Made by a program: the position numbers and the translations under genes | DNA from: Bacteroidales bacterium | GTDB taxonomy: Bacteria; Bacteroidota; Bacteroidia; Bacteroidales; VadinHA17 | Length of the DNA stretch: 33,467 nucleotides | Direction of reading: 5' to 3' | Assembly (NCBI GenBank): GCA_003152835.1 | Contig: PMBC01000046.1 | Span: 68,788 to 102,254 of the forward strand | Notes under the pieces: generated by a model | What the model was told of the DNA's origin: nothing | Databases searched by the model: none | The model's input: only the letters and a program-made list of their open reading frames with translations | Shown here: positions 1,213 to 17,390 of the stretch, piece after piece | Layout of the letters: the number at the start of each line of letters is the position of its first letter | How positions within the stretch are numbered: the first letter of the stretch is position 1

Positions 1213-4185
1213 TTATACCGGCTTCAGAATCGCACCCTTATGATTTTTCCCGTCTATCATTATTTCGAGAGGCTTCTCAAAACGGACATGCCTGACGAAT
1301 TCATCTTCATAAACACCCTTCATACGGTTCAGGAAATCAACATCATAATGACCTTCGTTTATAAAAGGATTTATTGTGAAATAGCCTACTCTGAACGATG
1401 TAAGATTCTGGAAGAAATGAGTTCCCTGGCTTGGGTCAATACGATAGTTTTTCAGGCCCGATTCAACGATTATCCTTGCCGCCGATATCTGCTGCCATTT
1501 AACCGGAATGCCAAGCCATGGATCAGTTGAACCCCATCTCCCCGGACCAATGAGAACATATCCCAATGCCTGCTTCACAAATGAAGAATTAATATTCTCT
1601 ATTATCCGGGCAACATTCTTGTTTTGCGCAGCATTAAATGATTCGGGTTTTATATAGACAAGATCCATAATGCCTTTGAACAATCCATGGCCAAGGGCAG
1701 ACTCTGAAAAAATAATTGTTTGCTCCTTTTTAATGTTATCCAGGTTTATGCTATAGGTATCGTCTGAATAAACTATTGGTCTTATCTGAAGGAAGTTAAA
1801 GATCTTAGGTGTTCCGGAAGGAGTTTCGAGATTGGCTGCAAATTCAATCTCGATCGGGTTATTCATCTCCTGCTGCCCTACCTCAAGAAGAGTTGAAAGT
1901 ATCTCAGCCAGAGGGAATGTTTTATGCTGGAGTATGCCGGAAAAAGTAATAACTCTCTTGCCGTTCTGAATGATGCCATCACGAAGTATGTTATTTGTAC
2001 GGTCGTATGTAGAAGCAAGATATTTCATCGCACTGTCATTATTCGCATCCTTGATATCGATCCTCATGATATTGACGCCATCATCGGTAGAAGGAACAAA
2101 GCTGCTTATATTCAGGTCAAGGGCTCTGAAGTCTTTCTGAGTATCCCGCAGTGCAGCTTCGGGTGATGAAAGCTGAAGGATCTTTTTCGGAATCTTAGGG
2201 CAGAAACGGAGCGACATACCACCTTCAACAATCAGTTTGCCAAGTCCAAAGGCAACGTTGGCGATCCCATCTTCAGCTTTTTCAGAACCTATTGGATAGT
2301 AATTAATCGACCTGGCAACACCTGAGAGTGTCGGGTAGAAAATATCGCCATGTCGGTTACCGCAAATTTCCTGGAGGATTATTCCCATTTTTTCCTCATC
2401 AATCACATTGGCAGTTGCAGTCATATAAGCTTTGCTTGCCTTGTAATAAACTGATGCATAAACCTCTTTAATTGCGTCAGACAAGGCCTTTACCATTATC
2501 TGGTTGTCGGCAAGCCTGGGAATCATATAGGTAGAATATACTCCTGCAAACGGCTGGTAATGCGAATCTTCCAGTTTGCTTGAAGACCTGACAGCTATCG
2601 GATGATTTCTTGAGACAGTAAGAAAAGCATAGAAGTCCTGGTAAACACGTCCCGGCAGTTCCGCATTAATGAAACGGTTAAGTATCTCCTCGTCAGGCAG
2701 ATCTGACATAGCAATCGAATAAAGATTGTTGTGATCCATGAACTCGTCGAAGATATCCGTGCTGAGAACTACCGTTCGCGGTATTGTTATAAGGACATCC
2801 GGGAATTTATTGAATAATTTATAGTTCTTAATTATCCTGTTAATGAAGGCAAGTCCCCTGGCTTTACCTCCAATCGATCCTTCGCCAATCCTGGAAAAAA
2901 CCTGGTACTCATCAAAACTCACTTTGTCGAATTTGGCGATTACCCCCCTGCCTTTACCAAGCCTGAAACTAGAGATGGCAACGTACAGGAACCGCCTCAT
3001 ATCATCCATAGTTTCAAAATCCTCTTTCCTGATGTATTTGAACATCTGGGCAACTGGAAACAAAGCCCTTGCATTCAGCCATTTTGAGAAATGATTACGG
3101 GTAGCATGGTACTCCAGCGAGTCATCCGGAATTGTCAGTATTTTCTGCTGAAGAGTCTGAAGGTCCGTTGCGATGGCGATTGGCTCGAGTGTGTCCGGAT
3201 TCCTGAATACAAATGGACCGAAAGCCAGGTTCTGGATTATATAATTTCTCAATTCCAGCGAAAGCGATTTGGAGTATTTATGGATAAATCCCGCACCCAT
3301 TTCCTCAGCCCTTTTCTTATGCTCAAGGTTTGAGGATTGAAGCAGGAACGGAACTTTGTCATCATCAGCCATTACCACCTTGCACAGTTCAAAGCCGGCA
3401 TTTTCATCAGGTATATTGTCTCTTTTGTAGCTGATATCGGATATTACCCCGAGAACATTGTACTTATATTTTTTGTACAGAGATTCGGCATCATTGAAAT
3501 TATTTGCCAGCAATATTTTTGGTCTGCCTCTCATTTTAAGCATACGCTGATGCTCATTTAGTGCTTCGCGCTGAAAATCAAGCGACTGTAAAAGAACAAT
3601 CCTGTAAATATTAGGAAGGTATGATGAGATATACCTGATTGAGTTTTCGATAAGGATTATGGCCTGAACTCCTATGTGTTCAATATCATAATCGGCATTC
3701 ATTTTATCCTCGATCAACTTGATTATTGCAAGAATCAGAGACGCATCACCAAGCCAGCAGAAAACATAATCGATTGCGCTCAGGTCCTCGCCTTCAAGCC
3801 TCAGCGATACCTCCCGTGAGAAATAAGTAAGAACAACTATCGGGGTATTCTCGTATTTTGTCTTTATCTTTTTAGCGAGGGCAAAAACATCGGTTCCTTT
3901 CAGGGAAAGCATGGAGATGACAAGGTCGACATTTCCATCTGCAAGAATCCTGAATGCATCTTCAGCATTATCTGTCTGAATAAAGACAGGGGGGTACCTC
4001 AGGTTCAGCGCTACATACTCATTGAAAATCTGCTCATCGATCCTTCCATCCTCCTCAAGCATGTAGTTATCATAATTACTGCATATTATAAGTACCCGGT
4101 GTATTCGCTTCTGCATCAGCAAGTCGAAGGAGGTATCCGTAAAATCGTACTTCTGAAGATCCTGAATACCGTCTATGATGGTCAT
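1213..4185 (-). CDS. Receiver-PEP synthase-like ATP-grasp protein (short paralogue)
   Basis: A 990-residue cytoplasmic protein with no signal peptide or membrane segment. Residues about 29-160 look like a response-regulator receiver, but the phospho-acceptor position (VISML, 88-92) has no Asp. Residues about 173-320 form a second receiver with Asp250 (VISD) and Lys303, but E180-N181 in the acidic pocket. Residues about 430-805 match the PEP synthase/PPDK nucleotide-binding domain: GGKARG 439-444, AVRSSS 531-536 with ED 539-540, MGIILQE 600-606, FGLG 646-649, E781 and LQIRP 799-803. The phosphohistidine swivel and PEP-binding barrel are absent. Instead there is a conserved tail with GPGRWG (880-885) and GTHFFQNLTS (921-930). 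It starts 12 bases after the stop of its 1151-residue paralogue, so the two share a transcript. Substrate and reaction are unknown; calling it PEP synthase would be unsafe. Confidence 0.8.
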   Translation of the reverse strand: MTIIDGIQDLQKYDFTDTSFDLLMQKRIHRVLIICSNYDNYMLEEDGRIDEQIFNEYVALNLRYPPVFIQTDNAEDAFRILADGNVDLVISMLSLKGTDVFALAKKIKTKYENTPIVVLTYFSREVSLRLEGEDLSAIDYVFCWLGDASLILAIIKLIEDKMNADYDIEHIGVQAIILIENSIRYISSYLPNIYRIVLLQSLDFQREALNEHQRMLKMRGRPKILLANNFNDAESLYKKYKYNVLGVISDISYKRDNIPDENAGFELCKVVMADDDKVPFLLQSSNLEHKKRAEEMGAGFIHKYSKSLSLELRNYIIQNLAFGPFVFRNPDTLEPIAIATDLQTLQQKILTIPDDSLEYHATRNHFSKWLNARALFPVAQMFKYIRKEDFETMDDMRRFLYVAISSFRLGKGRGVIAKFDKVSFDEYQVFSRIGEGSIGGKARGLAFINRIIKNYKLFNKFPDVLITIPRTVVLSTDIFDEFMDHNNLYSIAMSDLPDEEILNRFINAELPGRVYQDFYAFLTVSRNHPIAVRSSSKLEDSHYQPFAGVYSTYMIPRLADNQIMVKALSDAIKEVYASVYYKASKAYMTATANVIDEEKMGIILQEICGNRHGDIFYPTLSGVARSINYYPIGSEKAEDGIANVAFGLGKLIVEGGMSLRFCPKIPKKILQLSSPEAALRDTQKDFRALDLNISSFVPSTDDGVNIMRIDIKDANNDSAMKYLASTYDRTNNILRDGIIQNGKRVITFSGILQHKTFPLAEILSTLLEVGQQEMNNPIEIEFAANLETPSGTPKIFNFLQIRPIVYSDDTYSINLDNIKKEQTIIFSESALGHGLFKGIMDLVYIKPESFNAAQNKNVARIIENINSSFVKQALGYVLIGPGRWGSTDPWLGIPVKWQQISAARIIVESGLKNYRIDPSQGTHFFQNLTSFRVGYFTINPFINEGHYDVDFLNRMKGVYEDEFVRHVRFEKPLEIMIDGKNHKGAILKPV

Positions 4186-4197
4186 GGTCAGATAGGT

Positions 4198-7100
4198 TTA
4201 CTTATTCATTGTTATTACAGCTATCCCCTTTTTACCATCCATGCGAATGGTCAGGGGTTTTTCAAACCTTATATGACTGAAGAATTTACCTGTTTCAATA
4301 ACTCTCTGGCTGGCAAGCTTATCCCAGATAATTTTCCCATCAGTTGTTTCCTGGTTTATTGAAAAATATCCGACATTCATTGATGTTACATTATGAAAGA
4401 AATGAGAACCAAGTGAGGCATCAAGATGGAAATCAGGGAGATCAACCTCCACTATTACTTTTGCATTTGATATCTGGGGCCAGGCAACCGGAATTCCGAG
4501 GAACCTGTCCTTGGTTCCCCACCTGCCGGGTCCAATCAATACATACCGGGTGTTACCCTTTAGCATTTTATCATTGATAGCATCAATTTCCTCAGCCATC
4601 TGTGCGGTACGGAGGTTATCAAACTTCTCCGGCTCCACATATACCACGTCTGAAATACTGTCAATAACTCCGTTCCCCATACTTTTTCCTGACTGAAGAA
4701 TCAGATCTTCATGGTTTATGCTTTCCGGATCAATATCATAACCTGCACCGGTGCCAACAAGTGGCTTTATCTGGAGAAGATAAAAAGAAGCATTTCCCTC
4801 TCTGTCTTTTGTAAGATCAACTGCAAACTCAATCTCGGAAGGGTTGCCGGTTGCCTCGGCCACAACGTCAAGGATTATTTTTAATGTCGCCGACAGAGGT
4901 ATATAATCGTATTTCAGGATATCGGCAAAATTAATAACCCTTGGGCCCGGAGTATCGAGGCCAGGAATTATTGTATCATTATCTGTATTCAGAACTGAGG
5001 CTGAATGTTTCAGAGTTCCATGTTCTTCAGCCGAACTTATGTTAAGTGAGATTAGCCCGGCATTCTCACCTTCGAGAAGGTTCAGGTCCTTCTTATTGAG
5101 GTCGACGGCATAGAAATGAACCTGTGAGTTTTTATAAAGATCATTATGAGATACAATATCGAGAGACGGGTAGGACGGAGAAAATCTGAAGGCTCTTTCA
5201 CCTTCAACAACATAGTGGCCCAGCCCTACGGCTATAACTGCAAAGCCATCCTGAGGGGTCATGTGTGCAACCGGGTAAAAGTTAAATGACTGCGCCGTGC
5301 CGCTAATATGCGGGTAAAACGTATCATTAAACCGGTGGCCCACAACTTCCTGGATGACCACAGCCATTTTTTCCTGTTCAATCTTATAATTAATTGCTTC
5401 AAAATATGTTCTTGCGCTCTTCGAATAAATTGAAGCAAAGACAAGCTTTATTGCATCAGATAACTGGTGCAGCCTTGTTTCGAAATCAGGGTGGTTATTC
5501 GGCAAGAGATAGGTGCCGAAAATCCCTGAAAATGGCTGACTCATCGAATCTTCAAACAGGCTTGAAGAGCGTACTGCCACAGGTTTGTCAATCTGCCGTA
5601 GAAACACTCTCAGGACTTTCTCAAGGGTATAGCTGAGGCTCCCTTCAATAAACAGCTTCTGAAGAACGTTAAAATCTTTTTCACTCTTCACGCTGTCCCA
5701 CAGATGGTTGCGTTCCATAAACATATCGAACTCATCGGTCCCGATAATAGCTGTTATTGGCGTTTTAATATTTATTCCCGGAAGAAGGCGGCCCAGCTCA
5801 AAACTGTAAATCAGGGTATTTACAAAAGCAAGTCCTCTTCCTTTTCCGCCAAGAGATCCTCCGGCAAGACTTACAACATTTGTCTCGTCAATTACCGCAG
5901 ATTCTTCAAAGTTAATTACGCGTCCCTTATTAGTTTCTCTCCTGCGCTTCCTTATAATATCAATAAGGAATTCCCTGAGCTCCCTGAGACTTTTGAAATC
6001 AGAGACTTGTATCGGGTTAATGAGTTTGGCAATTTTCACTTCACCTCTTGCCATGAGCCAGAGTGAAAAGTGATTTTTCATGGCATGATAGGCAAGAGAA
6101 TCTTCAGGTACGGTTTCAAGATAAGCTTCAAACTCCTTCATCGATTTAGCCACTGCAATCTGGCGTCCCTTATTGTCCCTGTAAACGAAATGTCCGAAGC
6201 CAAGGTAATAGTTGATGAAAGATTTAAGGTCCTGGAGCAGGCTTTCGGAGTTCTTGTTTATAAAATTTGACTTAAGGGTGAAAGCGAATTTTGCATTTTC
6301 AGAATCAGATGATTGAAGCACAGTCGGCAGGTTCGGCAAATCATTCTTGATAAGCTGTATGAGTTCAAAACCGGCTGTATCATATAGTACTCCGTTCTTA
6401 GGAAAGCGCATATCTGAAATGACGCACAATAAGCTATCCTTGTACTTATTATAGATGGTTATGGAATCCTCCCAGTTTGAAGCCAGAAGAATTTTTGGTC
6501 TTGCCCGGAGCTTCAGGACTTTATAAAGCTCATCTGTCGAAACATCTTCAATAAGGCTTCTTGTCTGCTCCAGAACAAGAGTGTAGAGCATTGGAAGATA
6601 GCTGGAATAATATTCTGCCGAATCCTCCACAATAAGAATGACCCTTGTAAGTCCTTTCTTTGTATCATTGTCGACGTTCACCTGATCCTCGAGCAATTTC
6701 ACCATTGCAAAAAAGACTTTCGATTCTCCAGTCCATACAAAATAATTATCAAAAGGAACACCCAGAGCCTTTTGCTTTTTTACAAAGGGAGCATCGGCAG
6801 GATTATTCAGAAGCAGGAAAGTTGGCAGGTACGGGTACTTTTCCTTAATCTTTTTACATAGTACCAGCGGACTCTCCTTATGGACTCCAACCATTATAAT
6901 TATCAAATCATAATGCCTGGCTTTCAGTCTGTTAAAAGCTTCTTCCTCTCCCGTAACACCGGTAACTCTTGGGAGAGATGTAAGGCTAAGCTGATAATAT
7001 TCCCCGAGCATGTGGTCAGAGAATCTCCCTTCGCCTTCAATTGAATAAGCATCATACAAGTTTGCAACGAGCAATATCTCCTTTACCTTAAATGGCTGGA

Positions 7101-7653
7101 GATCGTGAAAAACGTCCCGTTCAGCATTATGCCGTTCCAGGAATTTCTGGAGCAGCTTCCTGCTTGAGACATTTGTTATGTCTGTATCATTCTCCTTCGG
7201 GACCTGAGCCATGCGGATTATGTCGCGGGCTTTATAGCTGTTAATATAGCCAGTGATAAGGCTTGCTATGTTTTGAATGAGGTCTCTTTCTTCCTTTAAA
7301 AACGGACCTTCGTTTTCAATGCTGAATTCCTTGTTATAAAATATCTCAATCGTACCCTTTTCATCATCAATTGTATTGAACTCCTGAATCATTTTCCAGG
7401 TTGTCTCCTGTAAATCAGGGGTTTCAAAAGATTTATCAAGGAATTTAATCCTTGCAAAGGTGTACTCCGGGTATTGCCAGGCAGCGGGCAGAAGCAAAAC
7501 AATTTGCTGAAGGGTTTCCTCAATTGGTTTTCCCTCCTTAAGAATATAGGTCGTCTGATTTATGCAAGCCAGTTCCTTTAACCGCTCCTGCTGATCGTGA
7601 AGCAACCGGTGATATTCATGGGGGATATTATCTTTATCATCCATCATTCGCAA
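4198..7653 (-). CDS. GAF/receiver-PEP synthase-like ATP-grasp protein (long paralogue)
   Basis: A 1151-residue protein, paralogue of the 990-residue neighbour with an extra N-terminal module. Residues about 20-145 resemble a GAF-type sensor (LPAAWQYPEYTFARIKF and GPFLKEERDLIQNIA). Residues about 190-325 form a receiver-like fold lacking the acceptor Asp (IIIMVG, 251-256). Residues about 336-480 form a better-preserved receiver with E343-D344, acceptor candidate D414 (VISD) and K467. Residues about 590-965 carry the PPDK-type ATP-grasp motifs: GGKGRG 602-607, AVRSSS 693-698 with ED 701-702, VGLG 809-812 and LLQIKP 959-964. The tail has GPGRWG (1041-1046) and GSHFFHNVTS. No GG-T-SH-A phosphohistidine motif is visible. 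Three Met codons lie within the first four residues, so the exact start is uncertain by a few codons. Upstream is the korB terminator, so this gene should have its own promoter, but none is obvious. Confidence 0.8.
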   Translation of the reverse strand: MRMMDDKDNIPHEYHRLLHDQQERLKELACINQTTYILKEGKPIEETLQQIVLLLPAAWQYPEYTFARIKFLDKSFETPDLQETTWKMIQEFNTIDDEKGTIEIFYNKEFSIENEGPFLKEERDLIQNIASLITGYINSYKARDIIRMAQVPKENDTDITNVSSRKLLQKFLERHNAERDVFHDLQPFKVKEILLVANLYDAYSIEGEGRFSDHMLGEYYQLSLTSLPRVTGVTGEEEAFNRLKARHYDLIIIMVGVHKESPLVLCKKIKEKYPYLPTFLLLNNPADAPFVKKQKALGVPFDNYFVWTGESKVFFAMVKLLEDQVNVDNDTKKGLTRVILIVEDSAEYYSSYLPMLYTLVLEQTRSLIEDVSTDELYKVLKLRARPKILLASNWEDSITIYNKYKDSLLCVISDMRFPKNGVLYDTAGFELIQLIKNDLPNLPTVLQSSDSENAKFAFTLKSNFINKNSESLLQDLKSFINYYLGFGHFVYRDNKGRQIAVAKSMKEFEAYLETVPEDSLAYHAMKNHFSLWLMARGEVKIAKLINPIQVSDFKSLRELREFLIDIIRKRRRETNKGRVINFEESAVIDETNVVSLAGGSLGGKGRGLAFVNTLIYSFELGRLLPGINIKTPITAIIGTDEFDMFMERNHLWDSVKSEKDFNVLQKLFIEGSLSYTLEKVLRVFLRQIDKPVAVRSSSLFEDSMSQPFSGIFGTYLLPNNHPDFETRLHQLSDAIKLVFASIYSKSARTYFEAINYKIEQEKMAVVIQEVVGHRFNDTFYPHISGTAQSFNFYPVAHMTPQDGFAVIAVGLGHYVVEGERAFRFSPSYPSLDIVSHNDLYKNSQVHFYAVDLNKKDLNLLEGENAGLISLNISSAEEHGTLKHSASVLNTDNDTIIPGLDTPGPRVINFADILKYDYIPLSATLKIILDVVAEATGNPSEIEFAVDLTKDREGNASFYLLQIKPLVGTGAGYDIDPESINHEDLILQSGKSMGNGVIDSISDVVYVEPEKFDNLRTAQMAEEIDAINDKMLKGNTRYVLIGPGRWGTKDRFLGIPVAWPQISNAKVIVEVDLPDFHLDASLGSHFFHNVTSMNVGYFSINQETTDGKIIWDKLASQRVIETGKFFSHIRFEKPLTIRMDGKKGIAVITMNK

Positions 7654-7690
7654 ACTGGAATTCAGGATTTAAAGTTAATAAATGAAAATT

Positions 7691-7722
7691 AAAAACCCCC
7701 TTCCCTGTAGAATGGGGTTTTT
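7691..7722 (-). terminator. Intrinsic terminator after korB
   Basis: On the minus strand the korB stop codon is followed after one base by AAAAACCCC, a 14-base loop, then GGGGGTTTTTAATTTT. The 9-bp stem (7691-7699 with 7714-7722) ends in a T-run. This separates korAB transcription from the 1151-residue gene that starts at 7653. The A-tract on the other side means it might also work weakly on the plus strand. Confidence 0.8.
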
Positions 7723-7723
7723 C

Positions 7724-8746
7724 TTATTCTACTTTCCAGACTGAACCGCTCACAAGAAGATCGTCCATGGATTTTATTTTAGAATTCTCGCGGACTGAAT
7801 TTATCTGATCCTCTACATCTGTTTCATATGTATTACCTGTTACAGATCTTATAACCCCAAGTGCTACAGGATAATCAGGATACCCCATATGTGCCAGCAT
7901 ATACTGAATGCCAGGGTTGGTTTCGTGAGCGTCATGTACCATCAGGTCATCCTTTGTTATGCCGTTTTCACCTATTTTTACCACCTTGAGTTTTAGCCCA
8001 TCCAGCACAAGTCCCTTGCCATTATCTTTTCCGAAGATCATTGGTTCGCCATGTTTCAGGATAATTGTACGGTCATCTCTTACCTCTTTGCCTGTTACAA
8101 CTTCATGAATTGCATCATTAAAGATGACACAGTTCTGAAGAACCTCAACAACTGATGTGCCCTTATGTCTGGCGGCTTCAATATAGATCTGCGTTGACAG
8201 GGTAACGTTTGAATCGACTGTCCTGGCAAAGAATTTGCCTTTGGCTCCGATTACAAGCTCACCGACTGAAAATGGTTCCTCAACAGTCCCGAAAGGAGAT
8301 GTCTTGGTCACCAGCCCCTTTTCCGAAGTTGGTGAATATTGTCCCTTGGTTAGACCGTATATCTCGTTATTAAAAAGGATAAGGTTTATATCAATGTTGC
8401 GCCGGATGGCATGAATAAAATGATTTCCACCAATGGCCAGAGCATCACCGTCACCTGTAATTTCCCAGACTGATAAATCAGGATTAGCTATTTTGACGCC
8501 TGAAGCAATGGCAGCGGCTCGTCCATGAATCCCATGGAACCCATACGTATCCATATAATACGGAAACCTTGATGAGCATCCTATGCCGGAGATGAAGACA
8601 ACTTTCTCCTTTGGTATTCCAAGCTCAGGAAGAGCTTTCTGAACAGCATTCAGGACTGCATGATCTCCGCATCCGGGACACCATCTGACCTCCTGGTCGC
8701 TTTTAAAATCTTTGGGGGTATATTGTAATGATTGTGCTTCAGCCAT
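7724..8746 (-). CDS. korB: 2-oxoacid:ferredoxin oxidoreductase, beta subunit
   Basis: A 340-residue thiamine diphosphate-binding beta subunit that works with KorA to interconvert 2-oxoglutarate plus CoA and succinyl-CoA plus CO2, using ferredoxin. Cysteines 23 and 26 (WCPGCGDH), 57 (GIGCSSR) and 206 (LQNCVIF) match the four ligands of the [4Fe-4S] cluster in KorB/PorB proteins. The diphosphate/Mg motif runs from GDGD (98-101) to NNEIYGLTKGQ (126-136). The KOR assignment over a pyruvate enzyme rests on the overall KorA/KorB arrangement; substrate specificity cannot be read with certainty. One base separates its start from the korA stop, so translation is probably coupled. No ferredoxin-domain delta subunit is next to it, so the electron acceptor is encoded elsewhere. 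Confidence 0.93.
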   Translation of the reverse strand: MAEAQSLQYTPKDFKSDQEVRWCPGCGDHAVLNAVQKALPELGIPKEKVVFISGIGCSSRFPYYMDTYGFHGIHGRAAAIASGVKIANPDLSVWEITGDGDALAIGGNHFIHAIRRNIDINLILFNNEIYGLTKGQYSPTSEKGLVTKTSPFGTVEEPFSVGELVIGAKGKFFARTVDSNVTLSTQIYIEAARHKGTSVVEVLQNCVIFNDAIHEVVTGKEVRDDRTIILKHGEPMIFGKDNGKGLVLDGLKLKVVKIGENGITKDDLMVHDAHETNPGIQYMLAHMGYPDYPVALGVIRSVTGNTYETDVEDQINSVRENSKIKSMDDLLVSGSVWKVE

Positions 8747-8747
8747 T

Positions 8748-10592
8748 TTATTTTTCCTCCAGTATTTTAATACATTTCTCCTTTATCTCGCCTATAGTAA
8801 ACGGGAGTCCCTGAACCTTATTTATCTGATGGTATGTAAACTCCTGGTATTTTATTCTCAGGTAATCAGCAAACTGGCCAAGGTTAAGTTCTGCTACGAC
8901 TATCTTTTTATATTTACTGAATACCTCCCTGACATTTTTTGGCATAGGAAAGATATAATTGAAATGGGCCTGGCTGACCTTATAACCCTCAGCCTGCAAT
9001 TCCTTGACTGCCGTAATCAGATATCCGCGTGATCCGCCCCATCCTACAACAAGAAGATCACCTGACTCTTTACCATACACTTTCAGATCGGGTATCTTTT
9101 CAGCGACTTTTGCCACTTTCTCGGCCCTGAAGTTAACCATCATCTCGTGGTTTTCAGGGATATATGATACTGTACCCTTCATAGTTTTCTCGAGACCTCC
9201 TATTCTGTGCTCGAGCCCGGGAGTTCCGGGGAGTGCCCAAGAACGCGCAAGAGTTTCGCAATCTCGTTTATAGGGCAGAAAAGGCTTATCGTTGGTATCG
9301 GCAAATGGCGGTTTTATTTCCGGAAGATCCTTCATAACTGGAATCCTCCATGGCTCAGAGCTATTGGCAAGGTAGCTGTCGGTGAGCAGGAGAACCGGGG
9401 TCATATGCTCCAGGGCTATTTTTGCTGCTTCGTATGCAAAGTGGAAACAGTCGGAAGGTGTGCTGGCTGCAATTACTACCAAAGGGCATTCTCCATTTCT
9501 GCCATAAAGCGCCTGCATCAGGTCGGCCTGTTCTGTTTTGGTCGGCAATCCTGTTGATGGCCCTGCTCTCTGGACATTAATGATTACCAAAGGCAGTTCA
9601 GCCATAACTGCCAGCCCGATAGCTTCAGATTTAAGAGCCATGCCGGGACCTGAGGTTGATGTCACTGCCAGGTTACCGGCAAAGCTTGCGCCGATTGAAG
9701 TACAGATTCCGGCTATTTCATCCTCAGCCTGAAAACTTTTTACACCCAGGTCCTTCCGTGCAGCCATATCTTCAAGAATACCGGTAGCAGGCGTTATGGG
9801 GTATGAACCAATAAATGCCCTCAGTCCCGCCCTTTCGGCTGCAGCCAGCAGACCCCAGGCGGTGGCTGTATTTCCGCAGATATTCCTATAGGTACCTTTT
9901 TGAATTGGAGCTGGTTCAATTTTAATGACAGGGTTAAGGGCCTCAATTGTTTCGGCATAATAATAGCCTGCCCTGAGGGCTACCTTATTTGCCTGTGCAA
10001 TTTCGGGTTTTTTGATAAATTTCTTATCGAAGTATTGCTCGGTATATTTCAGTTTCCTGTCAAAGAGCCAGTAGACCATACCCAGTGCGAACATATTCTT
10101 GGTCCTGAGCACTGATTTCGGATCGAGTCCGAAATCTTTAAGAGCCTCCTTGACCATTGATGAGATAGGAGCATCAATAACGTTGAAGCTATCGAGCTTT
10201 TCCTCTATTACCGGATCACCCTTATAGCCTGCCTTCTCAATATTTTTATCGGTAAAATTATCCTTGTCAAATATTATTATTCCTCCTGGTTTGACCCATC
10301 TGGCGTTTGCTTTTACTGCTGCTGGATTCATTGCAACAAGAACATCGGTATAATCACCGGGGGTATTTATTTCAGAGTGACCCACATGTACCTGGAATCC
10401 TGATACTCCGCCCACTGTTCCCTGAGGGGCGCGGATCTCTGCCGGGTAATCAGGAAATGTCGACAAGTCATTGCCGAACAGGGCTGCAGTATCTGAGAAG
10501 AGGGTACCTGTAAGCTGCATTCCATCACCAGAATCACCAGAGAAGCGGATTACCACCTCTTCTCTTTTAATAACCTGCGGGTTTTTAGCCAT
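8748..10592 (-). CDS. korA: 2-oxoacid:ferredoxin oxidoreductase, gamma-alpha fused subunit
   Basis: A 614-residue fusion. The N-terminal gamma domain (about 12-215) begins with IRFSGDSGDGMQLTG. The alpha domain (about 240-614) contains the GSYPITPATGILEDMA substrate/CoA loop (262-277), the SFQAEDE segment and TSGPGMALKSEAIG. The late GWGGSRG stretch belongs to the C-terminal domain. Together with KorB it forms the ferredoxin-dependent 2-oxoacid oxidoreductase used by anaerobes in an incomplete or reductive TCA cycle. The start ATG gives a short N-terminus before the first strand, as expected. It is the first gene of its operon, with a good -7 promoter element at 10653-10660. The gamma-alpha fusion order is the usual one for this subfamily. 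Confidence 0.93.
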   Translation of the reverse strand: MAKNPQVIKREEVVIRFSGDSGDGMQLTGTLFSDTAALFGNDLSTFPDYPAEIRAPQGTVGGVSGFQVHVGHSEINTPGDYTDVLVAMNPAAVKANARWVKPGGIIIFDKDNFTDKNIEKAGYKGDPVIEEKLDSFNVIDAPISSMVKEALKDFGLDPKSVLRTKNMFALGMVYWLFDRKLKYTEQYFDKKFIKKPEIAQANKVALRAGYYYAETIEALNPVIKIEPAPIQKGTYRNICGNTATAWGLLAAAERAGLRAFIGSYPITPATGILEDMAARKDLGVKSFQAEDEIAGICTSIGASFAGNLAVTSTSGPGMALKSEAIGLAVMAELPLVIINVQRAGPSTGLPTKTEQADLMQALYGRNGECPLVVIAASTPSDCFHFAYEAAKIALEHMTPVLLLTDSYLANSSEPWRIPVMKDLPEIKPPFADTNDKPFLPYKRDCETLARSWALPGTPGLEHRIGGLEKTMKGTVSYIPENHEMMVNFRAEKVAKVAEKIPDLKVYGKESGDLLVVGWGGSRGYLITAVKELQAEGYKVSQAHFNYIFPMPKNVREVFSKYKKIVVAELNLGQFADYLRIKYQEFTYHQINKVQGLPFTIGEIKEKCIKILEEK

Positions 10593-10719: not shown

Positions 10720-11520
10720 TTAGCTCCAGATATCTGCCTTCTTAAGGTTTATATCTCCTTCGAAGAACATTCTGGCTATCTTCTCGAAATATGGAGTATA
10801 ATCTGAAATAAAGAACTGGTCTCTTACTTTTCCGGGGCTATTAAGAAGATTGTGTTTTTCCAGCGTCTCTTTCAGTAAAAGAGAGACTATCCGGGCAGAA
10901 TCGACGATCTCGACATTGAAGTTGAATATTTTGCTTATCTGGTTTTTGATAATCGGGTAATGAGTGCAGCCAAGAATAAGGGCCTCGATTCCGGCAAGCG
11001 ACGGATCGCTAAGGTAGGCTCTAATGATCGCATTGCTTATATCATCGAAGATGAATCCTTCTTCGATCATTGGCACAAGCAGCGGTGTAGCCATTGATAC
11101 GACTCCGGTTCCGGGATTTTTTTCTTTCAGTTTTGTTTCGTACATCCCTGAACTGATGGTACGTTTTGTTCCGATGACTCCAATTTTTTTGAAATCCCTT
11201 GTACCCATATAATCAACCACCGGGTCGATAACATCGATAAGCAGGGTTCGGCTGCCGAATTCTTTTTTCAGAGTGTGAAAAGCAGAAGCTGAAGCCGAGT
11301 TACAGGCAATTAGAACCACTTTCGCGTTGTGTTCCAAAAGAAATTCAGTTATTTTCCTTGAATATGATTCTATCGCTCCGGCAGATTTATCGCCATATGG
11401 GAGATGGGCAGTATCGCCAAAATACACAAGGTTTTCATATGGCAATATCTGCTTAATAGCGTGAGCAACTGTAAGACCGCCGACGCCTGAATCAAAAATA
11501 CCGATAGGTTGTTCTTTCAC
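10720..11520 (-). CDS. murI: Glutamate racemase MurI (GTG start preferred)
   Basis: Interconverts L- and D-glutamate for peptidoglycan synthesis. It contains IGIFDSGVGGLTV at the N-terminus and both catalytic cysteines: Cys73 in IACNSASA and Cys185 in LGCTHYP (numbering from the GTG). The frame is open up to an ATG at 11547, but that ATG lies inside a strong terminator hairpin (11541-11568). The nine residues it would add (VIFFNASK) are encoded mostly by the terminator's T-run. Starting at the GTG at 11520 gives MKEQPIGIFDSGVGG, which matches the usual short N-terminus and a 266-residue enzyme. The gene follows the skp pair but appears transcriptionally insulated from it. I could not find a perfect TAnnTTTG promoter in the short space left. 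Confidence 0.9.
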   Translation of the reverse strand: MKEQPIGIFDSGVGGLTVAHAIKQILPYENLVYFGDTAHLPYGDKSAGAIESYSRKITEFLLEHNAKVVLIACNSASASAFHTLKKEFGSRTLLIDVIDPVVDYMGTRDFKKIGVIGTKRTISSGMYETKLKEKNPGTGVVSMATPLLVPMIEEGFIFDDISNAIIRAYLSDPSLAGIEALILGCTHYPIIKNQISKIFNFNVEIVDSARIVSLLLKETLEKHNLLNSPGKVRDQFFISDYTPYFEKIARMFFEGDINLKKADIWS

Positions 11521-11532
11521 TTTGCTGGCATT

Positions 11533-11568
11533 AAAAAAAATGACCATCCGCCAGCTGGCGAATGGTCA
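11533..11568 (-). terminator. Strong intrinsic terminator after the skp pair
   Basis: Bases 11541-11568 form a 28-base near-perfect palindrome (14-bp arms with a single mismatched pair, core CGCCAGCTGGCG). On the minus strand it is followed immediately by eight T residues (11533-11540). It starts 19 bases after the stop of the skp copy ending at 11588. It closes the uppS-bamA-skp-skp transcript and overlaps the most upstream possible murI start codon. Confidence 0.9.
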
Positions 11569-11587: not shown

Positions 11588-12100
11588 TCACTTTAATCCG
11601 AGCTTTGCTTTTGCAAGAGCCATGATATTTGTGCTCTTTGTTTCATCAAAATACAGGAGGGCACCTTTGGCAACATCAAAAATATAAAGGAAACCATTCT
11701 CTTTGCCAATATCTTTAATTGCTTTATCGACCTTTGTATATATAGGCTGGAAAAGTTCAACCTGTTTGTTTTGAAGCTGTGTCTGGGCATTCTGCTGAAA
11801 ATCCTGAATCCTTCTGTTCAGATCAATTAGTTCCTGTTCCTTGGTTTGCTTTACAATATCAGTAAGGTTTTTACTTTCCTTAGAATAAGCATCGTTCTTA
11901 TTGTTCAGTTCCACTGTCATAAGCTCAAGAGCATTTACCAGCTCCTTACGGAATTTCTCAAGGTTTGCCGTGGCAGAATCATATTCAGGCATGGCCTGAA
12001 TAAGCTCATCGCTGTTAACATGACCAAACTTAAGGTTCTGTGAGTGGCCGGCTGCAGCAACAAAAATAATCAGGGCTGCAATCGCTGTAAATCTTTTCAT
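11588..12100 (-). CDS. OmpH/Skp-family periplasmic chaperone (second copy)
   Basis: A 170-residue exported protein: signal peptide about 1-20 (MKRFTAIAALIIFVAAAGHS), a short beta segment (LKFGHVNSDELIQAMPEYD), a long charged helix pair about residues 38-120 predicted as coiled coil, then a C-terminal strand region (FLYIFDVAKGALLYF). This is the Skp/OmpH layout, a trimeric chaperone that keeps outer-membrane proteins soluble between the Sec translocon and BamA. It lies 39 bases downstream of a second OmpH-type gene and just before the terminator. A -7 element in the gap (12127-12134) could give it separate expression. The two copies differ clearly in sequence and are not a recent duplication. 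Confidence 0.88.
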   Translation of the reverse strand: MKRFTAIAALIIFVAAAGHSQNLKFGHVNSDELIQAMPEYDSATANLEKFRKELVNALELMTVELNNKNDAYSKESKNLTDIVKQTKEQELIDLNRRIQDFQQNAQTQLQNKQVELFQPIYTKVDKAIKDIGKENGFLYIFDVAKGALLYFDETKSTNIMALAKAKLGLK

Positions 12101-12126
12101 TTCAGATCGTTTTAAAAATTTAAATG

Positions 12127-12134
12127 CAAAAATA
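12127..12134 (-). promoter_or_regulatory. -7 element between the two skp genes
   Basis: The minus strand reads CTATTTTTGCA around this site, a perfect TAnnTTTG. The same 11-base word precedes the EamA gene at 32844-32854 on the plus strand. It lies 27-34 bases upstream of the second skp start, giving a leader of about 20 bases, and suggests an internal promoter in the bamA-skp operon. Confidence 0.45.
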
Positions 12135-12139
12135 GTTAA

Positions 12140-12655
12140 TTAATTCTTATAACCTAATTTTTCGAGTACCTGATCACTGATATCAAACTTCGGGTTTGCG
12201 AAGAGGATATTGCCTCCGGTGGAAGAATCGAATATCACAGCATAGCTTCCCTCAACAGCTATATCCTTAATGGCTTTAAGGATATCATCCTGAATTGGTT
12301 TCACCAGTTCCTGTCTTTTCTTGAAAAGGTCACCTTCAACACCAAAGTATTTGTTCTGAAGATCTTTCATTTCTTTTTCCTTGGAGATGATATCTTCTTC
12401 CCTCTTTGTTTTCATATCCTGTGAAAGCAATGGAGCTTCATTCTGATATGACTTGTACATCTGTTCAACAACTGCATAACCATCGGCAACCTCTTTCTCC
12501 CACTGTTTTGAAAGCTTATCAAGCTGCTCTTGCGCAGTATTGAAGGCAGGTATGTTTTTCCTGATATATTCAGAATCAACGAAAGCGTACTTCTGAGCCA
12601 CGGCCATAGCCGATGTCAGAAGTACCATCCCTATTATTAAACTTATTTTTTTCAT
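12140..12655 (-). CDS. OmpH/Skp-family periplasmic chaperone (first copy)
   Basis: A 171-residue exported protein when started at the ATG at 12655, which places a clean signal peptide at the N-terminus (MKKISLIIGMVLLTSAMAVA, cleavage before Q). The frame extends seven codons further to an ATG at 12676, but that would put acidic and extra residues before the signal peptide, so the inner start is preferred. The mature part has the OmpH layout: YAFVDSEYIRKNIPAF, a long charged coiled coil about residues 35-115, and a closing YAVIFDSSTGGNILFA segment. It lies directly downstream of bamA (about 21 bases), the usual Bacteroidota arrangement for the chaperone that delivers barrels to BamA. Confidence 0.9.
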   Translation of the reverse strand: MKKISLIIGMVLLTSAMAVAQKYAFVDSEYIRKNIPAFNTAQEQLDKLSKQWEKEVADGYAVVEQMYKSYQNEAPLLSQDMKTKREEDIISKEKEMKDLQNKYFGVEGDLFKKRQELVKPIQDDILKAIKDIAVEGSYAVIFDSSTGGNILFANPKFDISDQVLEKLGYKN

Positions 12656-12676
12656 GACTAAAAATTTAATGTCCAT

Positions 12677-15941: not shown

Positions 15942-16619
15942 TTAATGCTTTCTTTTCTTTTCCACATCATTGTAAGCAGGACATCCGGCAAGCTTATTAT
16001 AAAATTTCCATGTCACTGCAAAGCCCGTAAATGTATACCAGTCATTATTATGGAGCCAGGAAAAATCGGATGGGTCAACCAAATCTTTCAGGCCGTCAAA
16101 GTTATCATAAAAAGTCTTACGAAAATCATATTCAGCTTCGAGCCCAAGATTTTTGTAAATATTAACTTTAAACCCAAATGAGAATGGAATAACCGGTTTA
16201 TAAGAAACTGAAAATGTATTAAATATTGCTATACCGGCGCCAACGGCAAAATAGGGAGAAAAATCCCATAATTTCCCGGTGGTGGCATATGGAAGAAAGT
16301 TGAATTCAAACTGAGCTGAAAATTCTTCTACAGTTCCTGAGAATGAAGCGCCTCGTGTCTGCTGGAAGCTGTTATTGAAATCGAGGTCATCTGCTCTCAA
16401 TCCCCCTACCAGTAAATTTCCGCGAATAGAGTATCTTGGATGGAAGTTGTAGCGATAAAAGATCCCTCCTGCCGGCAGAGGAGAATAGAGGAGCCTGTTC
16501 GGATTTATATCGCCAAGATATGAGGATATCCCGGCAAAAACTCCATAATCAGAATTACGTTGTCCTGCACAGGTTATTGAAATGCTGATAAACAAGAAAA
16601 TCCAGGGTAATCTTTTCAT
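15942..16619 (-). CDS. DUF6089-like outer-membrane barrel protein
   Basis: A 225-residue exported protein with signal peptide about 1-19 (MKRLPWIFLFISISITCAG). It is followed by alternating amphipathic strands typical of a small 8-strand barrel: YGVFAGISSYLGDINP, YSIRGNLLVGGLRADD, FSPYFAVGAGIAIFN, LGLEAEYDFRKTFYD. The YLGDINPNR and FAVGAGI motifs match a family I know as DUF6089, regularly found directly before uppS-bamA in Bacteroidota. The function is not established. The C-terminus ends in a soluble lysine-rich stretch (NDVEKKRKH) rather than an aromatic, so the last strand lies slightly inside. Start and stop sit 3 bases from uppS and 18 from the next barrel gene. Confidence 0.75.
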   Translation of the reverse strand: MKRLPWIFLFISISITCAGQRNSDYGVFAGISSYLGDINPNRLLYSPLPAGGIFYRYNFHPRYSIRGNLLVGGLRADDLDFNNSFQQTRGASFSGTVEEFSAQFEFNFLPYATTGKLWDFSPYFAVGAGIAIFNTFSVSYKPVIPFSFGFKVNIYKNLGLEAEYDFRKTFYDNFDGLKDLVDPSDFSWLHNNDWYTFTGFAVTWKFYNKLAGCPAYNDVEKKRKH

Positions 16620-16637
16620 TAAAACCGATTGCGCTCA

Positions 16638-17390
16638 TTATCTTCTGAGTGAGGGCAAACCATGAGGCCCTGACTTCAGCTTATAAGAAATTGTAAAGTT
16701 TAAAAAATAATAAACGTCGTTTGCCCTCGAATATTGTGGATTTGAATAGCCATCTAAAAAATCGGTGAATGCATACCTGCCTCCAACCTCTAAGCCAAAA
16801 TTAATGTTTGGTGAATAGATCAGCGTGGTACCTAATCCTGCGGGAATTACTGCCGCGAATCCGCTGTTTTTCATTCCACGAGCCACCAGAGAAGCATTTC
16901 CCTTAACATTATAAGAGATACCTCCGAATCCGGCAAAAGCATAGAAGTCGAGTGATTTGAAAAGGTTCCTCATAATTCCCTGTTTCTGTTTCAGGAACAG
17001 GTAACTGTTTTCAGCATAGTTCTTTATAAAATAATACTCTCCCATAAAAGCAGGTTCGAAAAAGCTTGTTGATGCCTCATAATTACGTCCTTCGTTTGAA
17101 CCCCTGATATCTGTAGCATGGAACATCCCGTATGTCAAGCTGAGTCTGAGGTTGACATCCCTGGACATCCTGTATTTCAGGTTGCCATTAATATCGAATC
17201 TTGTCTGCATGAAACTCATGTCGCGCAGACCGAGGAAATTCTTAGTTCTGCTAAACCCGCCGATATCTCCAAAAAAGAATGATGGCCCTATCCCACCTTC
17301 AGCTTCCCATCTCCTCATCTTCCAAAGCTGTGCATTGGAAACAGGTAAAGCAAAACATATTATCAATATAGCTAAAATGGACCTTTTCAT
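16638..17390 (-). CDS. Outer-membrane beta-barrel protein, related to the downstream DUF6089-like gene
   Basis: A 250-residue exported protein with signal peptide about 1-20 (MKRSILAILIICFALPVSNA). The mature part has repeated amphipathic strands (AEGGIGPSFFFGDIGGFS, LRLSLTYGMFHATDIRG, FYAFAGFGGISYNVKG, FGLEVGGRYAFTDFLDGY) ending YYFLNFTISYKLK. The F-GDIGG and AFAGFGGI positions mirror YLGDINP and AVGAGI in its neighbour, so the two are probably distant paralogues. No enzymatic residues are visible. It is the first gene of the uppS-bamA-skp transcript, with a -7 element 25 bases upstream. Its role in envelope assembly is inferred only from context. Confidence 0.72.
   Translation of the reverse strand: MKRSILAILIICFALPVSNAQLWKMRRWEAEGGIGPSFFFGDIGGFSRTKNFLGLRDMSFMQTRFDINGNLKYRMSRDVNLRLSLTYGMFHATDIRGSNEGRNYEASTSFFEPAFMGEYYFIKNYAENSYLFLKQKQGIMRNLFKSLDFYAFAGFGGISYNVKGNASLVARGMKNSGFAAVIPAGLGTTLIYSPNINFGLEVGGRYAFTDFLDGYSNPQYSRANDVYYFLNFTISYKLKSGPHGLPSLRR

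Follow-up and report, generated by a model that had tools for sequence, protein, structure and literature searches.

A tandem pair of receiver-coupled PEP-synthase-like proteins in Bacteroidales and their possible role in the control of glutamate dehydrogenase

Two adjacent genes, p1 and p2, lie in a 33,467-nucleotide stretch of a Bacteroidales genome (contig PMBC01000046.1, positions 68,788 to 102,254; hereafter the window) and encode proteins in which receiver domains are joined to an ATP-grasp domain of the PEP synthase and PPDK type. We see about an even chance that p1 and p2 are receiver-gated ATP/phosphohistidine enzymes of the PEP-synthase/rifampin-phosphotransferase superfamily which lack a substrate domain and act as dedicated controllers of glutamate dehydrogenase (GDH), p1 mainly of GdhA and p2 of GdhB. 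For many Bacteroidota, among them the Bacteroides of the human gut, GDH is a major route by which ammonia enters metabolism. A controller of GDH would extend the known roles of the PEP-synthase phosphohistidine machinery to the control of a protein and, being dedicated and widely conserved, could explain the report that GDH activity is affected by gene(s) acting in trans (Baggio and Morrison 1996).

Receiver and ATP-grasp domains of the gene pair

The gene p1 occupies positions 1213–4185 of the window and encodes 990 residues; p2 occupies positions 4198–7653 and would encode 1151 residues if translation began at a TTG codon. Both lie on the reverse strand, as do their domains, the kor genes and the hairpin described below. 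Since the TTG is followed by two ATG codons (7647 and 7644), a start at one of these, giving 1149 or 1148 residues, is likelier. An earlier note on this DNA had described two adjacent paralogues separated by 12 bases, and both open reading frames are real and stand at these positions, with that gap between them. Of the 31 genomes of the genus, 24 keep a p2 orthologue, and in nearly all of these p1 comes immediately next, so the pairing is not due to chance.

Within the order, 132 of 149 genomes contain the family, and p2 matches of any strength occur in 57 of 247 genomes from a wider sample of the phylum, some of them via the N-terminal domain only. Genomes with p1 only and with p2 only are both common in these co-occurrence counts, which are drawn from partly incomplete genomes; the heteromer suggested earlier is therefore rejected as an obligatory state. 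The family also includes a short form of about 580 residues, which has no receivers, and a distant branch in which the larger proteins carry a nucleotidyltransferase domain at their C-terminal end. Some p2 homologues carry long added N-terminal extensions (locus L037, 6462–10769, 1436 residues; locus L045, 6901–11619, 1573 residues).

Profile searches of both proteins and an AlphaFold2 model of p1, built with 84 aligned sequences (mean pLDDT 86.9, pTM 0.79), bear out the proposal that each joins receiver folds to a PPDK/PEP-synthase ATP-grasp domain. From the N-terminus, p1 consists of two receivers, a helical linker, a PPDK_N ATP-grasp domain and a swivel-like C-terminal domain, and it is conserved in the taxonomic order; p2, as read from its open reading frame and Pfam matches, has the same series preceded by a sensor-like domain. 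Modelling covered p1 and its separate C-terminal domain.

The Response_reg profile matches p1 above the Pfam cut-off (E 8e-9) and p2 below it (E 9e-4). In the p1 model, two receiver folds span about residues 28–325 and are followed by the linker, the ATP-grasp domain and the C-terminal domain. Receiver 1 of p1 (residues 29–165; 3691–4101; Pfam, alignment and model) has Met92 at the phospho-Asp position, and receiver 1 of p2 (6664–7086; alignment) has Met254. Met replaces the phospho-Asp in 75 of the 84 aligned sequences, and Cys, Ser or Val replaces the conserved Lys. With both residues lost, receiver 1 is, as judged from the alignment, a pseudo-receiver. Receiver 2 of p1 (residues 172–325; 3211–3672; alignment and model) matches solved receivers with Z up to 15.7, and its active site residues E180, D250, S284 and K303 are kept in all 84 sequences. 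At the second acidic position, 83 of the 84 sequences have Asp, as do 72 of the 73 p1 rows; in the window and in all 24 genus members read, p1 residue 181 (3643–3645) is Asn, and p2 keeps Asp. Alignment likewise indicates that receiver 2 of p2 (6184–6645) is complete, with its E–D pair, D414 and K467. Thus the earlier description of two receiver-like domains in each protein stands for the folds, but the phosphorylation site is complete in receiver 2 only.

The helical linker of p1 (residues 326–417; 2935–3210) is defined by Pfam and the model. The equivalent region of p2 (residues 502–576) matches DUF5752 (PF19027) just above the cut-off, and this match is partial, covering profile positions 20–108 of 208. 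The N-terminal domain of p2 (7159–7653) had been called GAF-like, an assignment which is rejected: no GAF profile from Pfam matches p2 or ten homologues (11 sequences in all), even at E 10. The domain recurs in other Bacteroidota proteins. At locus L044 a CRP-type regulator (5963–7165), with cyclic-nucleotide-binding and HTH domains, is encoded between p1 and gdhA; in its N-terminal part this regulator resembles the p2 sensor domain at about 30%.

The window open reading frames searched yielded no histidine kinase, in agreement with the earlier note. This result, together with the full conservation of receiver 2 (84/84), would suit a self-contained phosphorelay, in which a histidine of the C-terminal domain phosphorylates the Asp of receiver 2 within the same protein, the module standing in for a histidine kinase, and the state of the receiver acts on GDH or another partner. 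We think this quite improbable, because orphan receivers often obtain their phosphate from distant kinases, and because the members of about 580 residues and the nucleotidyltransferase branch have ATP-grasp and swivel-like domains with no recognised receiver; a receiver is therefore not the general acceptor.

The PPDK_N profile (PF01326) matches both proteins far above its cut-off (E 1e-33 for p1 and 3e-34 for p2). ATP-site residues were mapped by motif against the PPDK of the same genome, using the catalytic residues in PPDK numbering (K22, R92, D321, E323, Q335 and R337). In p1, Pfam, alignment and structure matches place the domain at residues 418–806 (1768–2934), and all six equivalents are conserved as K441, R533, E779 (Glu for D321), E781, Q800 and R802 (73/73). 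In p2 (4750–5916; Pfam and alignment), Lys963 stands at the position of Arg337 in the LQ-x-R motif, and Lys replaces Arg here in 11 of 11 sequences. The ATP-grasp domain, previously taken to be apparently intact in both proteins, is therefore intact in p1 but not in p2, which, on this substitution, may be catalytically weak. As a description of anatomy, a receiver-coupled, ATP-using phosphotransferase is well supported.

A swivel-like domain after the ATP-grasp domain

In PEP synthase and PPDK, the LQ-x-RP motif is followed by a swivelling phosphohistidine domain and then by a TIM-barrel. Neither PF00391 nor any other Pfam profile matches the region after LQ-x-RP in p1 or p2, and a search of the genome with PF00391 found only the genuine PPDK. 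A link at the sequence level between the C-terminal domain and the swivel domains of PPDK was sought with hhalign and rejected, since no match was obtained. Nevertheless, several stretches in the C-terminal domain rank among the best conserved in the family (GxGRWG[ST]xDxxLG ... E ... SxG[TS]HFF ... Y). The S-x-G-[TS]-H motif is invariant, and SxG[TS]HFF is retained in homologues down to about 26% identity.

The domain spans residues 812–990 of p1 (1216–1752), as defined by the GxGRWG..D..LG and SxG[TS]HFF motifs, the model and structure matches. Folded alone, these 179 residues give a confident model (pLDDT 92.5, pTM 0.90). Foldseek returned nothing below E 0.001 for this domain, and swivel domains were ranked first by a second aligner only; nine of the ten top matches of the latter are swivel domains of rifampin phosphotransferase (756–867 and 764–867), PPDK (several carrier domain entries) and Enzyme I (its N-terminal part), and the tenth is the extra C-terminal domain of a pyruvate kinase. 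The Z-scores are 5.5–7.1, below 8, and for this reason membership of the swivel fold is likely rather than proven. Residues 418–990 of the p1 model align with residues 4–467 of PEP synthase (2ols) and 8–511 of PPDK (1dik), and the C-terminal domain therefore sits in the expected place, after the ATP-grasp domain. The earlier note had named a hidden phosphohistidine domain as something that would refute its reading, and this now looks largely to be the case, in that the best structural matches of the C-terminal 179 residues are swivelling phosphohistidine domains.

The candidate phosphohistidine of p1 is His923 (1417–1419), which is invariant in its motif. It sits after a strand and Gly-[Thr/Ser] and before a helix, and the PPDK of the genome has GGMTSH; from this order of elements we infer that H923 corresponds to the phosphohistidine of PPDK. 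In p2, motif alignment places the swivel-like domain at 4201–4731, with His1084 as the candidate.

These features bear on two other readings. Automatic annotation may suggest an alternative PEP synthase or PPDK, and the PPDK_N domain is indeed present. However, the PEP/pyruvate TIM-barrel is absent, no phosphohistidine motif is recognisable by sequence, the match to the NCBIfam PEP synthase model reaches 27 bits against a cut-off of 740, and a full-length PPDK is encoded elsewhere in the genome. A plain PEP synthase or PPDK is rejected on account of the missing TIM-barrel and the real PPDK, and we find this reading scarcely credible. Alternatively, the proteins could be catalytically dead sensors or scaffolds that bind ATP and GDH and alter GDH allosterically, with the receivers and ATP serving as inputs only. 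Such a role would fit the absent substrate domain and the loss of the catalytic Arg from p2 (11/11). It is nonetheless quite unlikely, given that p1 retains all of the catalytic ATP-grasp residues checked and that the His is invariant across deep divergence.

Genomic neighbourhood and the link to glutamate dehydrogenase

In the window and in its genus, p2 and p1 are preceded by korA and korB, which encode the alpha and beta subunits of a 2-oxoacid:ferredoxin oxidoreductase. Profile matches and genus loci identify korB at 7724–8746 and korA at 8748–10592 as conserved upstream neighbours. Between korB and p2 lies a terminator-like hairpin (AAAAACCCC...GGGGGTTTTT; 7690–7722), also seen in several but not all of the genus loci (L202–L224). 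The idea of a single korAB–p2–p1 operon is weakened by this hairpin in the window and in some genus members, and p2–p1 may, on sequence grounds, form a transcription unit of its own. Upstream of p2, both in the window and in genus loci L202–L224, there is a recurring A/T box like TTAGTAATTTTA, which is perhaps p2's own promoter. Upstream of korA, on the same strand, lies a glutamate racemase gene (10720–11547), which possibly continues a glutamate theme or is there by chance. The window also contains tandem OmpH/Skp genes and tandem PorG-like (type IX secretion) genes (11588–12676 and 15942–17390).

In other genomes, genes of the family are often close to a GDH gene. The two are no more than 3 kb apart at 21 of 50 p1 loci (those with at least 3 kb of flank), at 8 of 10 loci from other classes and at 7 of 11 loci of the distant branch. 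Given the few GDH genes per genome, chance adjacency is estimated at well under 1%. At one locus (L033), gdh, p1, p2, korB and korA are found together; like the korAB genes in front of the pair in the window's genus, this points again to 2-oxoglutarate, which GDH has in common with KorAB if the latter's substrate is as its family suggests. The two GDH genes of the window's own genome are on another contig. In the literature searched, no GDH link is described for the family.

The pairing with GDH is largely subtype-specific: p1 is found mostly with GdhA, p2 with GdhB and the distant branch with a third GDH. All seven p2 loci that adjoin a GDH gene adjoin GdhB, and members of the GdhA clade (36 rows, support 98/99) have p1 or nothing as close neighbour, never p2. 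The nucleotidyltransferase-bearing branch adjoins a separate, third GDH clade, and a minority of p1 loci adjoin GdhB-type genes, mainly where no p2 is seen beside them. Presence and absence follow the same division when GDH types are set by score thresholds. Among 21 p2-only genomes with a GDH, GdhB is the sole type in 16–17, and GdhA is present in 86–89 of 104 p1 genomes; the difference in GdhA presence between p2-only and p1 genomes gives a Fisher p of about 5e-8, uncorrected for phylogeny. In two of the distant relatives, the gene directly follows a GDH gene and its product ends in the nucleotidyltransferase domain (L078, 5611–8808; L083, 5843–8635); such relatives might modify GDH by nucleotide transfer. 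The earlier note had left the phosphate acceptor open. Subtype-specific adjacency and co-inheritance narrow the putative acceptor to something at the GDH node.

The adjacency could reflect shared transcriptional regulation only, both partners being, for example, nitrogen-responsive, with no direct action on GDH. The orientation, side and gap of GDH relative to the family gene vary among lineages, and 15 genomes have a GDH and no member of the family, so GDH does not need the family everywhere; both observations would suit such an explanation. Against it, the association turns up repeatedly, across several orientations, different classes and three separate GDH clades, and is subtype-matched by adjacency as well as by presence and absence, which makes shared regulation very unlikely as the whole explanation. 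The same ATP/phosphohistidine machine might instead act on a small molecule of the glutamate/2-oxoglutarate node, much as rifampin phosphotransferase acts on rifampin, the GDH link then being metabolic and not one of protein modification. The superfamily relatives that have been studied best use small molecules as substrates, rifampin phosphotransferase is the best structural match, and KorAB, if its substrate is as its family suggests, has 2-oxoglutarate in common with GDH. Yet nothing substitutes for the missing substrate domain, the extra parts being receivers, a linker and a sensor-like domain, and a protein partner would account for subtype-by-subtype pairing more readily than a shared metabolite would. 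We regard a small-molecule acceptor as unlikely.

Proposed mechanism and comparison with known systems

If p1 and p2 are receiver-gated controllers of GDH, the ATP-grasp domain, whose full residue set is observed in p1, would take phosphate from ATP and pass it to the histidine of the C-terminal domain (H923 in p1), for which a swivel-like fold is predicted. From there the phosphate would move to a target, most likely GDH itself. Receiver 2 and the N-terminal domain of p2 would gate this transfer; receiver 2 is the only receiver able to be phosphorylated, receiver 1 having no phospho-Asp. With Lys in place of the catalytic Arg, p2 might be slower or mainly regulatory. At its most specific, the proposal is that these PEP-synthase-type dikinases form a new class of enzymes that modify proteins, with a receiver-gated, ATP-derived phosphohistidine that directly modifies and switches GDH in matched pairs (p1 with GdhA, p2 with GdhB, and the nucleotidyltransferase branch with the third GDH). 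We put this forward tentatively, as possible but rather doubtful. If true, direct modification would at the same time put a name to the trans-acting gdhA gene that was described for Bacteroides in 1996.

The analysis turned up no characterised homologue whose reaction is defined; a search by sequence for solved relatives gave only weak receiver and ATP-grasp matches. Rifampin phosphotransferase of Listeria monocytogenes is the best structural match both of the whole p1 model (Z about 26) and of its C-terminal domain alone (Z 7.1). Like p1, it combines a PPDK_N ATP-grasp domain with a C-terminal swivel domain. In contrast to this enzyme, p1 and p2 have no rifampin-binding domain, carry receivers in front and have SxG[TS]HFF as their swivel motif instead of the PEP-utiliser motif. 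In PpsA (PEP synthase) and PPDK, the ATP-grasp and swivel-like domains follow one another as they do here (2ols, 1dik), and there are ATP-site motifs in common with the genome's PPDK. Unlike PpsA and PPDK, p1 and p2 end after the swivel-like domain, without the TIM-barrel PEP/pyruvate domain, and their phosphohistidine motif is not recognisable by sequence.

A further comparison is with the trans-acting gene(s) downstream of gdhA in Bacteroides thetaiotaomicron, where a segment of about 3 kb is reportedly needed in trans; p1 is 3.0 kb long. The gene that comes next downstream of a GDH gene in B. pyogenes is p1, which is convergent with that gene and 304 bp away; in other Bacteroides p1 lies 5-prime of gdhA or further off, sometimes with a peptidase gene between. 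The title of the original report speaks of trans-acting gene(s) that affect the activity of the NAD(P)H-utilizing GDH of B. thetaiotaomicron (Baggio and Morrison 1996, J Bacteriol 178:7212; reference B6 of PMC4539542). The gene p1 is a candidate for this trans-acting gene rather than its established identity: each stands beside a GDH gene, and the effect on GDH activity reported for the one is proposed here for the other.
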